From Flavobacteriales bacterium (GTDB lineage Bacteria > Bacteroidota > Bacteroidia > Flavobacteriales_D > Sanyastnellaceae): DNA of 64,000 bases. Where the stretch lies: positions 806,001 to 870,000 of the forward strand of contig JAGYJM010000002.1 in assembly GCA_018402085.1 (NCBI GenBank), in the 5' to 3' direction. A model generated the notes under the pieces. It did not search any database, was not told where the DNA came from, and was given only the letters and a program-made list of their open reading frames with translations. Of the stretch, positions 8,266-17,683 are shown in pieces (position 1 is the stretch's first letter; the number at the start of each line of letters is the position of its first letter). Position numbers and translations under genes: made by a program.

Positions 8266-11200
8266 CTACGGACAAGATTGTCCGAATGTGCCAAGGAATT
8301 GTAGCAGATCGGATGAGTTCACAAGCAAATCACCATTGAGGTCACTGGCACATGTGAGCTGGCATGAGCCGTCATCATCCGTCGCTTCTGCGACGAAATT
8401 CAGCGCTTCCGGATTAGTACAGCCTTCTACCTCGAGCTCATCACAGACTCCGTCGCCGTCGGTATCGTTCAGGCAGGTAAAGTTGCAATCGTAATGAGCA
8501 GGAGGGAAGAAGCAGTTGCCTGAATCGACCGTTGCATTGGCGTTGTAGTTGCAGGCAGCCGGATCCATGCAATCAATAACTTCATCCGGCTCGTATGTAC
8601 ATGAATTGTCATCATCCGTCGCTTCTGCGACGTAGTTATTCGCCAGTGGATCGGTACAACCCTCTATCTCCAGTTCATCACAAACTCCGTCACCGTCTGT
8701 ATCGTTCAGGCAGTTAAAATTGCAATCGTAGTGTGCGGGAGGGAAGAAGCAGCTACCGGAATCGACGGTTGCCAGGGCATTATAGTTGCAAGCGGCAGGA
8801 TCCATGCAGTCAACGATTTCTGTTGCGGCGTATATACAAGATCCATCGTCAGCAGTGGCAGCAGGGTCGTAATTCTCCGCGTCCTGATAGGTACAGCCAA
8901 AGACTTCTTCTTCGTCACATACACCATCGTTGTCATAGTCATTCAGGCAGTTGCCTTCGCAATCCTGGAATGGATCTGCGTATATGCATGAACCATCGTC
9001 ACAGAGTGCCAAGTCATTGTAATTGCATGCCGTTTCATCAGTGCATCCATCAGGGAGGATGCATGAGCCGTCATCTTCGTTGGCTTGTGCATCATAGTTG
9101 CAAGCTGTCTCATCGGTACAGCCAGGGTAGATACACGAACCGTCGTCAGCGTCTGCTTCGGGATCGAAATTGTCTGCCTCCGGATCTGTACAACCAGGGT
9201 CGCATTCGGGTGCTTGTACACCCGGCCAAGAGATGATGACTAGTCCATTACCAGACTGAACACCACCTTGTGTATTTCCGTTGAGCACTCCACCGGTGTA
9301 TGAGGAGCCCCCTCCACCGCCGCCAGCAGCGCACTGTCCGTCGGCTGAGCCACCACCGCCGTAATAGCCACCGCCGCCACCTGCGCCGGAGTTGCATGAG
9401 CCGTATCCGCTGTTGAAGCCACGATTACCTCCTTGTCCGAGAGAACCAGCTTGACCTGCAGCGCCGTACCCACCTGAAGGGCTTCCTGCCCCTCCGGAAG
9501 TCATACCTGCGCCGCCACCGCCGCTTGAGAATCCCCCTTGGGAGCTTCCACCGTTGCCACCGCCTGAACAAGTACCGTCTCCACCTGATCCAGCGTAAGG
9601 GCTGCATCCCTGGCAAGCACCTGCGAGTCCCGGGGCACCATCTGCACAAGGTGAAGCAGCGCCACCGTCACCACCCGGGCCTGCAGCACCGGTTCCACCG
9701 CCGCCACCTGCAACGATGACACGATCTTGAAGTGTGTTGCCGCCTTGACGTACATCGGAGGCTCCGCCACCGTTTCTGCCGGAAGCACCCGTGCCTCCGC
9801 CGTTGAACCCGGATTGACCACCGACGTAGACGTAGATGGTTTCACCTGGAGTCACTGTGAGGTCGCCTGAAGCATATCCGCCTTGTCCGGCGTCGTTTCC
9901 TTCGCCTTCGGCGCCCCATACTTCGATGGAGATTTGTTCTACACCGTCTGGAACGAGGAATGCTTGTTCAGCACCAGTGTAGTCGAATTGCAGGTTTCCG
10001 GGTTCTGCAATGGTAGCCGGGTCATAGCAGTTGCCGCAGAGGTCTTCGATGAAGGTACCGCCGCAGTTTCCAGCGCAGTCTACTTCGAAGATGCAAGACG
10101 CATCGTCGCACCCAGCGGCAGGGTCGTAATTGCATGCGCTATCATCAGTACAACCCGGGAATGAGCAGGATCCGTCGTCGCATTGGGCGTTCACATCGTA
10201 GTTGCATGCCAAAGGATCGGTGCAACCGTCAGGTGTTATGCATGAGCCATCATCAACGTCGGCATTGGCATCGTAGTTGCACGCAATTGGGTTTGTACAT
10301 CCTTCATTGCATTCAGGAATGGCTTGTTCCGTCCAGGTGATTACTACAAGTCCATCACCTGATTGAACGCCACCTTGTGTATTTCCGTTGAGCACTCCAC
10401 CAGTGTATGACGAGCCCCCTCCGCCGCCACCGGCAGCGCACTGTCCGTCGGCTGAGCCCCCTCCGCCGTAGTAGCCACCGCCACCACCTGCGCCGGAGTT
10501 GCATGAGCCGTATCCGCTGTTGAAGCCACGATTACCTCCTTGTCCGAGAGAACCAGCTTGACCTGCAGCACCGTACCCACCTGAAGGGCTTCCTGCCCCT
10601 CCGGAAGTCATACCTGCGCCGCCACCGCCGCTTGAGAATCCCCTTGTGAGCTTCCTCCGTTGCCACCGCCTGAACAAGTACCGTCTCCACCTGATCCAGC
10701 GTAAGGGCTGCATCCCTGACAAGCACCTGCGAGTCCCGGGGCACCATCAGCACAAGGTGAAGCAGCACCGCCGTCACCACCCGGGCCTGCAGCACCGGTT
10801 CCACCACCGCCACCGGCCACGATGACGCGATCTTGAAGTGCGTTTCCGCCTTGACGAACATCGGAGGCTCCGCCACCGTTTCTTCCGGGAGCACCTGTGC
10901 CCCCGCCGTTGAAACCGGATTGACCACCGACGTAGACGTAGATGGTTTCACCGGGAGTTACTGTGAGGTCGCCTGAAGCATATCCGCCTTGTCCGGCGTC
11001 GTTTCCTTCGCCTTCGGCGCCCCATACTTCGATGGAGATTGAGGTTACTCCACCAGGCACGATGAAGGTTTGTTCAGCACCTGTGAGATTAAAGGTTTGA
11101 GTTACTTCCTCATTTGCTGCTTGAGGATCGTAGCAATTACCGCAAAGATCATCTACAAAAGTACCGCCGCATACACCTGCGCAATCGATAACAAAAGCGC

Positions 11201-13718
11201 AAGAACCATTGTCGCATTGCGCGTTAGGATCGTAGTTACAAGCGGCTTGATCGGTACAACCGTCAGGCAATATGCACGAGCCGTCATTGCAGAGCGCAGT
11301 ATCATCGTAGTTGCAGGCTGTTGGATCTGTACATCCGTCAGGGAGTTGACAAGAACCATCATCAATGTCTGCAGAGTCATCATAATTGCAAGCGATCGGG
11401 TTGGTGCACCCCGCGTTGCATTCGGGTGCTTGTACACCCGGCCAAGAGATGATGACTAGTCCATTACCAGACTGAACACCACCTTGTGTATTTCCGTTGA
11501 GCACTCCACCGGTGTATGAGGAGCCCCCTCCACCGCCGCCAGCAGCGCACTGTCCGTCGGCTGAGCCACCACCGCCGTAATAGCCACCGCCGCCACCTGC
11601 GCCGGAGTTGCATGAGCCGTATCCGCTGTTGAAGCCACGATTACCTCCTTGTCCGAGAGAACCAGCTTGACCTGCAGCACCATACCCACCTGAAGGGCTT
11701 CCTGCCCCTCCGGAAGTCATACCTGCGCCGCCACCGCCGCTTGAGAATCCACCTTGTGAGCTTCCTCCGTTACCACCGCCTGAACAAGTACCGTCTCCAC
11801 CTGATCCAGCGTAAGGGCTGCATCCCTGACAAGCACCTGCGAGTCCCGGGGCACCATCAGCACAAGGTGAAGCAGCGCCACCGTCACCACCCGGGCCTGC
11901 AGCACCGGTTCCACCGCCGCCACCGGCAACGATGACGCGATCCTGTAGGCTATTTCCGTTTTGACGAACATCGGAAGCTCCGCCACCGTTTCTTCCGGGA
12001 GCACCCGTACCACCGCCGTTGAAACCGGATTGACCACCGACGTAGACGTAAAGCGTTTCGCCCGGTGTGACTGTGAGGTCGCCTGAAGCATATCCGCCTT
12101 GTCCGGCGTCGTTTCCTTCGCCTTCAGCGCCCCATACTTCGATGGAGATTTGTTCTACACCGTCTGGAACGAGGAATGCTTGTTCAGCACCAGTGTAGTC
12201 GAATTGCAGGTTTCCGGGTTCTGCAATGGCAGCCGGGTCATAGCAGTTGCCGCAGAGGTCTTCGATGAAGGATCCTCCACAGTTTCCTGCGCAGTCAACT
12301 TCGAAGATGCAAGAGGCATCGTCGCATCCAGCGGCAGGGTCGTAATTGCATGCGCCATCATCTGTACACCCCGGGAAAGAGCAGGATCCGTCGTCGCATT
12401 GAGCGTTCACATCGTAGTTGCACGCCAAGGGATCGGTGCAGCCGTCAGGTGTTATGCATGAGCCATCATCGACGTCGGCATTGGCATCGTAGTTGCAGGC
12501 AATCGGGTTTGTACATCCTTCATTACATTCAGGAATGGCTTGCTCCGTCCAGGTGATTACTACAAGTCCATCACCTGATTGAACGCCACCTTGTGTATTT
12601 CCGTTGAGCACTCCACCGGTATATGACGAGCCCCCTCCGCCGCCACCGGCAGCGCACTGTCCGTCGGCTGAGCCCCCTCCGCCGTAGTAGCCACCGCCAC
12701 CACCTGCGCCGGAGTTGCATGAGCCGTATCCGCTGTTGAAGCCACGATTACCTCCTTGTCCGAGAGAACCAGCTTGACCTGCAGCACCGTACCCACCTGA
12801 AGGGCTTCCTGCCCCTCCGGAAGTCATACCTGCGCCGCCACCGCCGCTTGAGAATCCCCCTTGTGAGCTTCCTCCGTTGCCACCGCCTGAACAAGTACCG
12901 TCTCCACCTGATCCAGCGTAAGGGCTGCATCCCTGACAAGCACCTGCGAGTCCCGGGGCACCATCAGCACAAGGTGAAGCAGCACCGCCGTCACCACCCG
13001 GGCCTGCAGCACCGGTTCCACCACCGCCACCGGCCACGATGACGCGATCTTGAAGTGCGTTTCCGCCTTGACGAACATCGGAGGCTCCGCCACCGTTTCT
13101 TCCGGGAGAGGGCTGGCATCCTTGCCAGACGCCATCATTACCACCGCCACCGCCGCCGGCAGCGACGATCACTCTGTTCGCGAGGGCGTTGCCGCCGTTA
13201 CGCACGTCAGAGGCACCACCACCATGACCGCCCGAACCAATGACTTGACCGCCTTGATTATTTCCGTTTGTCCCGGGATTTCCTCCGCCATTGTAGCCGT
13301 TTTGTCCGCCGACGTAGATGTAGAGCATTTCGCCTGGTGTGACTTGAAGATCACCGGAGACGGAGGCTCCGAGTCCGCCGCTACCACCGTTTGACGCATT
13401 TTCACCTTCTGCGCCGAAAGCTTCAATGGTCAGGGATGTTACGCCATCGGGGACGACCCATGTTTGTTCGTTTCCTGTGTAATCGAAGGTTATTTCATCG
13501 GAGCCTAGGTTATTTGGGTCGTAGCAATTACCGCATGCGTCTTCAACGAAATCACCTCCACAAATTCCGGCGCAGTCTACTATGAAGTCGCATGATCCGT
13601 CGTCGCTCAAGGCATTGGGATCATAGTTACAGGCTTCCTGATCAGTGCAGCCACTTTGTGCGTTTGCTGCAGCGGCTGATCCCAGAATAGCTAAAAGAAG
13701 GATTAGAATGTATCGCAT
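8266..13718 (-). pseudogene. Giant glycine-rich modular secreted protein C, four modules, broken by a -1 frameshift
   Basis: Restoring one base gives a 1817-residue protein of the same plan as gene B. It has a signal peptide (MRYILILLLAILGSAAAANA, ATG at 13716-13718), four glycine-rich domains with a period of 1104-1113 bp, Cys/Asp blocks, a long mini-repeat tail and the dockerin-like end DLNGDLLVNSSDLLQFLG. The frame breaks at 10640-10643, where the run is CCCC. Equivalent copies read CCCCC at about 12856 and 9533 and CCACC at about 11750. The open 5' part is 13718-10608 (1036 residues, three domains begun). The 3' part is open from 10722 to 8266 but has no leader. The first module is chimeric, with GGGASDVR...RVIVA(G) occurring twice in a row. 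A homopolymer sequencing error is a real alternative; if so, this is an intact gene. Confidence 0.85.
9230..13060 (-). repeat. Four-copy coding repeat of gene C, period 1104-1113 bp
   Basis: Equivalent segments begin at about 9240, 10344, 11456 and 12560. The middle spacing of 1112 bp is one base short of a codon multiple because of the deletion at 10640-10643. Cys/Asp blocks between copies differ in composition, whereas the glycine-rich halves are near identical. Confidence 0.8.
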
Positions 13719-16700: not shown

Positions 16701-17683
16701 CCCATGAGATGGTGATCATACCGTCACCTTGTCTGACGCCCGGGTTGGTGATGCCGTTTGCGACGCCACCGATGAACGATGAGCCACCGCCACCGCCGCC
16801 ACCGCCGCAGTTGTTGTAGCCACCGCCACCGCCGCCGTAGTAGCCGCCACCGCCGGAACCTGCACTACCGCAGTCACTGGTGTTACCGGGTTCACCGGCG
16901 CCATTGCCGCCGATGCCGAGCTGACCTGCAGTGCCTACGATGTAGTTGCCACCGCCGACACCAGTGAATCCAACAGCGCCTCCGTTAGACTGGGTGCCTC
17001 CGAACCCGCCGCCGGGGAAAGGTTGGTTGCCGGGGTTTTCGGTTCCGTCAGCACCCTGCAGGCCACCACCGGCACCGCCGAGGCCGCCTTGCCAGCCTCC
17101 GTATCCGTCGGAGTACCCGGCGTTACCGCCTCCGCCTCCGGCAACGATGACACGGTCAGTGAGTGCTTGACCACCTTGTCTGACATCTGAAGCACCACCG
17201 CCTTTTCCACCTTGCCATGGACTCCTGGCATACACCTCCGCCATTGAAGCCACCTGAGTCACCGCTTCCGCCGACGTAGATGTAGATAGTTTCACCGGGA
17301 GTTACGGTAAGGTCTCCGGCAGCTTCACCGCCGAGTCCGCCGGGAGTATTTACTCCATTTGAGCCCCCTTGTCCGCCGAAAGCTGTGATGCTGATTTGGG
17401 TTACCCCATCAGGGACGATCCATGTTTCGGTATTTCCGGAGAAGGAGAATTCTTGAGAGCCAGATTGGCCTATTCCGTTGGGGTCATAGCAGTTGCCGCA
17501 GGCATCTTCGATGAATGTACCCCCGCAAATTCCGGCACAGTCTACTACGAAGGCACACGAGCCGTCGTCATCAAGAGCGTTTGGATCGTAGTTGCAGGCT
17601 TGGCTATCGGTGCAACCGGATTGGGCGATGGCGCCAAATGAAAGTCCGATCAAGGACAACAAAGTGAAGGTGAGACTTTTCAT
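13792..17683 (-). pseudogene. Giant glycine-rich modular secreted protein D, three modules, broken by a +1 frameshift
   Basis: Removing one base gives a 1296-residue protein. It starts at ATG 17681-17683 with a signal peptide (MKSLTFTLLSLIGLSFGAIA), then three glycine-rich domains spaced 1092-1095 bp, Cys/Asp blocks, the mini-repeat tail and the end DLNGDLVVNSSDLLQFLG...FGQDCP. In the first module the sequence reads GGACTCCTGG at 17219-17228, where the two other copies read GGACCCTGG. The extra T at 17223 shifts the frame after about residue 155. The N-terminal piece is open 17683-17156 and the remainder 17295-13792. This is not a homopolymer, so it is less easily dismissed as a sequencing error than the break in gene C. 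As it stands only a short secreted fragment would be made. Confidence 0.85.
14510..17400 (-). repeat. Three-copy coding repeat of gene D, period 1092-1095 bp
   Basis: Equivalent positions at about 14529, 15621 and 16716 show near-identical glycine-rich halves (GGFGGTQSNGGAVGFTGVGG, GGGGGYNNCGGGGGGGG). Confidence 0.8.

Follow-up and report, generated by a model that had tools for sequence, protein, structure and literature searches.

Organization of the array and of gene C

The window, i.e., the whole stretch of 64,000 nucleotides that was analysed, corresponds to positions 806001–870000 of contig C2 of genome G000, an assembly of 3.78 Mb in two contigs. The first 26 kb of the window are occupied by minus-strand genes arranged in tandem. 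The array genes are composed of linkers of the CTDxxACNYDPNAxxDDGSC type and glycine-rich modules of approximately 250 residues each. One of them, gene C, contains four of these modules (Table 1), preceded by an N terminus that is assumed to be signal-peptide-like and followed by a C-terminal tail that is assumed to be dockerin-like. The array genes have in common a C-terminal tail, DLNGDLLVNSSDLLQFLGTFGQ (e.g., at 8266–8360 in the window), which presumably resembles a dockerin-type calcium-binding repeat.

The frame of gene C is broken in module 3 by the loss of one base (GGGGG to GGGG, with the run at 10640–10643), so that the gene is possibly not expressed as a whole; in the cell it may be either intact or broken. 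Many array genes are split by single-base insertions or deletions relative to sister modules, as observed at 11 of 12 joints between gene fragments, the twelfth being without a qualifying match. The split sites include 10640 and 17156–17295 in the window and, on C2, for example 743214, 758261, 760729, 763068, 776296, 778029, 779398, 797007 and 2757281. The single-base gaps may represent unpolished repeats or sequencing errors, decay with real lesions, or phase variation.

A large expansion of ALK/LTK-like modules is found on C2 at 735000–832000, at 856–860 kb, and around 1.85–1.88, 2.12, 2.20, 2.75–2.78, 2.97 and 3.12 Mb. It comprises 123 places at which the left half of module 1 finds a match and at least 39 matches to Pfam family PF12810 (37 of 68 candidates scored), whereas two genomes of the same genus show no PF12810 match. 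In the array genes and in others, within-gene homogenisation tracts tend to start or stop near the edges of the glycine-rich domains; as a consequence the linkers stay variable, while the domains are equalised. A regular expression for whole modules matched 64 stretches, which is fewer than all modules. Six stretches at two distant places contain a module with a matched length of 302 residues and the same ends (CGNCYDPTDEGD...CEFSGCTDE), differing from their neighbours.

Table 1. Features of gene C and related stretches (window positions unless C2 is indicated).
Feature	Position	Strand	Description	Basis
Gene C	8266..13718	-	N terminus, CTDxxACNYDPNAxxDDGSC linker repeats, four glycine-rich modules, C-terminal tail	translation
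Gene C ORFs	10608-13718 and 8266-10722	-	split by one-base deletion	
Module 1, hybrid glycine-rich module	12540..13499	-	320 aa, compared with 257 aa in module 2	
Module 1, divergent left half	13109..13499	-	holds first motif, ends in X-type tail NDGVWQGCQPS	
First motif copy	13149..13223	-	GGGASDVRNGGNALANRVIVAAGGG	
Joint in module 1	13103..13108	-	CTCCCG, at most about 6 nt shareable by both parents	
Tract without substitutions relative to module 3	12622..13108	-	487 bp; one base deleted in module 3	
Second motif copy	13020..13094	-	GGGASDVRQGGNALQDRVIVAGGGG	
Module 2	11439..12209	-	standard, one motif	
Module 3, right half	10406..10891	-	source-like copy of the right half of the hybrid; carries frame-breaking deletion	
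Module 4	9223..9993	-	standard, one motif	
Six 302-residue stretches	C2 754935, 774425, 783841, 791308, 2752266, 2761525			whole-module regular expression

Two copies of the motif in module 1

The minus-strand translation of gene C from 13718 reads ...GSGGHGGGASDVRNGGNALANRVIVAAGGGGGGNDGVWQGCQPS and continues directly with PGRNGGGASDVRQGGNALQDRVIVAGGGGGTG.... The motif GGGASDVR has one start at 13223 and a second, in frame and exactly 43 codons further, at 13094; its double occurrence in the first module of gene C, as proposed in a previous sequence-only reading, is thus evident. The interval given in that reading, 13050–13260, takes in the whole of the first copy but only the beginning of the second, which runs on to 13020.

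The doubling is confirmed as real and not a product of chance. In the parts of the genome that were covered, a strict pattern detects 87 occurrences of the motif, among which the only consecutive pair less than 700 bp apart is that of module 1 (129 bp); the next smallest spacing is 894 bp, and the median is 1077 bp. Of the 123 places in the genome matched by the left half, only one, again module 1, has more than a single (A)SD[VI]R motif, in a count that covers the (A)SD[VI]R motifs and leaves out the GGGSF and GGGTF kinds.

The two copies share 21 of 25 residues, which, together with their spacing of exactly 43 codons, would be expected if the motif had been duplicated in tandem, or had slipped, within a single module, with no second parent involved. 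At the DNA level, however, the copies are identical at only 52 of 75 bases and use the same codon at 8 of the 21 common residues. Copy 2 is no closer to copy 1 than to motifs in the modules of other genes, the best of which shares 54/75 bases with it, and the two adjoining 129-bp blocks of module 1 have 74 of 129 bases in common. Instead, copy 2 is the same as the motif of module 3 in all 75 bases (occurrence at 816826). In addition, the first copy is followed by a tail that belongs to a class of modules found in other genomes, referred to here as X-type and characterized by the motif followed by the signature [N/D]Gx[W/Y]xxCQ..P[A/G]G. Module 1 keeps this signature as far as CQPSP, and is the only one of the 123 places in its own genome where it follows the motif. 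An origin of the second copy by duplication or slippage is scarcely credible in view of these differences.

Identity of the right half of module 1 with module 3

From 13108 to 12622, module 1 matches module 3 without a single substitution in 487 bp, the only indel being the deletion in module 3. The earlier claim that module 1 contains the right half of a standard module agrees with this match. With modules 2 and 4 the same tract shows 24 differences each, of which 20 and 22, respectively, are at third codon positions. In the rest of the block, up to 11451, modules 1–2 and modules 3–4 differ at 57 of 1171 sites (49 at third positions); at this rate, and assuming independent sites, the chance of finding zero differences in 487 bp is approximately 3e-11. 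Modules 1 and 3 thus show, over 487 bp, the kind of excess identity within a gene that serves as a criterion for concerted evolution by conversion or unequal exchange.

The right half of module 1 together with module 2 is 93.4% identical over 1881 bp to the right half of module 3 together with module 4, which points to a two-module duplication, with later homogenisation, as the likely origin of the gene C blocks. The substitution-free tract suggests module 3 as the source of the right half of the hybrid. It would reflect either a recent event or a subsequent re-homogenisation that reached as far as the joint, at which homology stops; in the second case the tract could stem from a conversion following the joining and not from the joining itself.

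An in-frame joint between non-corresponding positions

The sequence across the joint is CAG CCC TCT CCC GGA AGA in the hybrid and GGT GCT CCC GGA AGA in module 3, with identity starting from CTCCCGG. The number of bases that both parents can share is at most 6 (CTCCCG), a value that is exact on the side of module 3 and on the left side relies on the CQPSPAG sequence of the X-type modules L026 and L028. A left parent with an alanine (GCN) after the proline, as in these modules, would make CTCCCG shareable by both parents; the 6-nt homology is thus in part a reconstruction. The parents are joined at non-corresponding positions, the left side past its motif and the standard side before its own, and as a consequence the motif occurs twice. 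The joint is in frame, whereas the other two frames would meet a stop after 38 or 94 codons.

The position of the joint also sets module 1 apart. A BLAST comparison of sequence windows around the 87 motifs (at least 93% identity over at least 200 bp) reveals 38 tracts between module pairs with an end inside the motif window, ends farther upstream than this filter allows not being visible. Outside gene C the tract ends are located approximately 242–245 bp before the motif anchor or 338–548 bp after it, and in gene C they occur also at −213. Under the same filter, module 1 alone has breakpoints less than approximately 65 bp from the anchor. At its other end, 12622, the identical tract stops where the module does, as do tracts in other genes.

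A false joining of reads from two modules during assembly might be considered, given the highly repetitive array and the presence, at 11 of the 12 broken gene joints, of one or two single-base gaps relative to sister modules, as would be expected of poorly polished repeats. A false join, however, normally needs a long overlap, whereas the present joint has only about 6 nt in common and is in frame, and the assembly consists of just two contigs. It is highly improbable that module 1 is such an artefact. A joint that keeps the reading frame but not the register, and for which no more than approximately 6 shared nucleotides can be counted, fits the previously proposed illegitimate in-frame recombination between unlike modules.

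Relation of the left half to X-type modules

The X-type class comprises seven distinct intact modules found in other genomes, i.e., L023, L024, L025, L026, L028, L035 and L123, with L122 repeating the sequence of L025. The tail after the motif is NDGVWQGCQPSP in the hybrid, GRNGTWGGCQPSPAG in L028 and GRDGSYSSCQPSPAG in L026. A scan of 123 loci of relatives yielded 123 motifs from 107 loci and none from the other 16. The X-type signature is present after 8 of these motifs (7 distinct), all in modules with a single motif, and the seven distinct X-type relatives each have their own right half. Among the relatives, L124 has the sole motif pair in the same frame and less than 250 residues apart, but there the pattern has matched a later part of one module and not a second motif.

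These single-motif relatives bear on the possibility that module 1 represents an old subclass of two-motif domains, the right side of which was later homogenised by conversion from module 3. Homogenisation is indeed visible in the right half, the left parent is known only loosely, and there is no orthologue by which the joint could be dated: none of gene C was found in 114 genomes of the family (including two of the same genus), in an order sample of 399 or in a class sample of 395. Nevertheless, a doubled motif as an ancient feature appears quite unlikely, given that all seven distinct X-type relatives combine one motif with a right half of their own and that the 123 motifs scanned in relatives include no true doubled motif.

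For the first motif with its tail, the scores against six X-type modules are 146–177, whereas none of the 123 places in its own genome gives more than 144; for the tail alone the scores are 66–93 and at most 56, respectively. Residues 1–89, preceding the first motif, score 208–254 against the six X-type modules, compared with 269 at 2197292 and 262 at 2753865–2759700 in the own genome and 260 for L097 of another genome. Because these residues score slightly higher against own modules, only the first motif and the tail are X-like. The stretch before the first motif is divergent, as the sequence-only reading describes the N-terminal half, and is no closer to X-type modules than to modules of other genes in the own genome. 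For the whole left part, the best own module (379) exceeds the weakest of the six X-type modules (range 344–394). Taken as a whole the left half is not clearly X-type, and its origin may be an X-type module or an intermediate lineage, unless it is itself a mosaic. The doubtful origin of the left half leaves the joint at 13108 untouched.

A profile of the six X-type modules, searched against the 114 family genomes, has the hybrid as its best match (148.9 bits), but only over positions 2–135 of 266, whereas 33 of the 36 other matches listed run to position 265 or 266. Of the matches listed, the exceptions are the copy at 2757296, the frame of which is broken, and two from genome G018; in this search 22 of 122 candidates from the own genome were scored.

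The unrecombined parent proposed to be sought among relatives did not emerge as a close match. The best identities of the left half are 64% among the 123 places in the own genome, 59% in the 114 family genomes outside the own genome, and 67% (over residues 2–123) in the order sample of 399, the latter in L097, which lacks the X-type signature. No unrecombined left parent closer than 64–67% was thus found in these three sets.

Similarity to the ALK/LTK glycine-rich domain and predicted fold

The hybrid (40.0 bits), module 2 (32.8 bits) and three X-type relatives (34.3–48.1 bits) all score above the cut-off of 24.5 bits for PF12810, the ALK/LTK glycine-rich domain. The matches extend over profile positions 12–203 in module 2, 3–215 in L028, 3–240 in L026 and 12–241 in the third X-type relative. 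The hybrid has no such continuous match and covers positions 11–114 of 243 only, which indicates that it is a recombined and not an intact member of the domain family. A sequence-profile search of the PDB gave no match at E≤0.01.

Both AlphaFold models are weak. That of module 2 has a mean pLDDT of 63.1, with most of the glycine-rich part below 50. In a Foldseek search with this model, the 21 matches with E≤0.001 all belong to chains of ALK or LTK, the best one with an E-value of 9.6e-6, a probability of 1.00, a query TM-score of 0.41 and an rmsd of 12.9. The model contains nine strands, two of which are supplied by the motif (79–83 and 91–95). The model of the hybrid has a mean pLDDT of 50.9. 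Its second motif is located on the corresponding strands (140–144 and 152–155) in a block with pLDDT values of 63–73, and its first motif forms two short strands in blocks with values of 26–32. These predicted structures give only a hint that the second motif may be preferred for the core strands, the alignment having set the relatives on the second motif.

The array modules thus resemble the ALK/LTK domain in the profile scores and in the predicted fold of module 2, but differ in being bacterial, secreted-looking and arranged in tandem, with CTDxxACNYDPNAxxDDGSC linkers between them. In the accessible part of the open-licence literature, no description was found of bacterial ALK-like glycine-rich modules or of such an expansion.

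Discussion

Module 1 consists of two unlike halves with a joint between them, its right half is without substitutions relative to module 3, and a class of one-motif modules exists with the same motif and tail as its left half. The most plausible explanation, to which a probability of roughly 0.85 can be assigned, is that module 1 is a recombinant, in which an unlike module up to and including an X-type tail is followed by a standard gene C module, with a joint of microhomology scale. The first ∼130 residues would derive from an unlike glycine-rich module, extending past its GGGASDVR...VIVAAGGGGGG motif and the X-type tail to CQPSP. From there the sequence would have jumped, in frame but out of register, into a module of the module 3 lineage, about four residues ahead of its motif. 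The shortness of the stretch in common at the joint, approximately 6 nucleotides at most, suggests an illegitimate joining at the scale of microhomology, for which crossover, conversion with a single non-homologous end and a switch of template during replication would all be suitable routes. From the sequences we infer the type of event, and that it was either recent or followed by re-homogenisation of the tract.

Repeats in genes for bacterial surface proteins are known to undergo intragenic recombination and concerted evolution. One paper on the subject deals with the MgPa locus of M. genitalium (PMC2169797). The array genes share with these systems modules that are nearly identical within a gene and differ between genes, as well as mosaic tracts. 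In contrast, the tract in module 1 has a left end that is non-homologous, lies in the middle of a domain and joins unlike modules. Microhomology-mediated illegitimate recombination is likewise a known process, and the non-homologous joint, for which a homology of at most about 6 nt is deduced, is similar to its products; the present case differs in that it is seen once, is in frame, and has a left parent the DNA of which is deduced only. Module 1 is a clean single instance of a known process, and a clear but fairly ordinary trace of faulty recombination between repeats.

A broader proposal, rather doubtful at present and based in part on predicted structures, is that the family diversifies by occasional out-of-register swaps of half domains between module classes, one of which perhaps comes from distant Bacteroidota. 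Concerted evolution could then spread a hybrid along the array, and in the predicted fold the second motif would form the core, with the first tolerated as an extra loop.

Module 1 represents one event and leaves the general picture unchanged. It provides, resolved to the base, an in-frame joint in the middle of a domain between two unlike modules of a tandem bacterial glycine-rich domain, of which one parent is placed within gene C itself, while the other is recognised from the tail that it left behind. Module 1 is in this way an illustration of how variants beyond the reach of homologous exchange alone could arise in such arrays.
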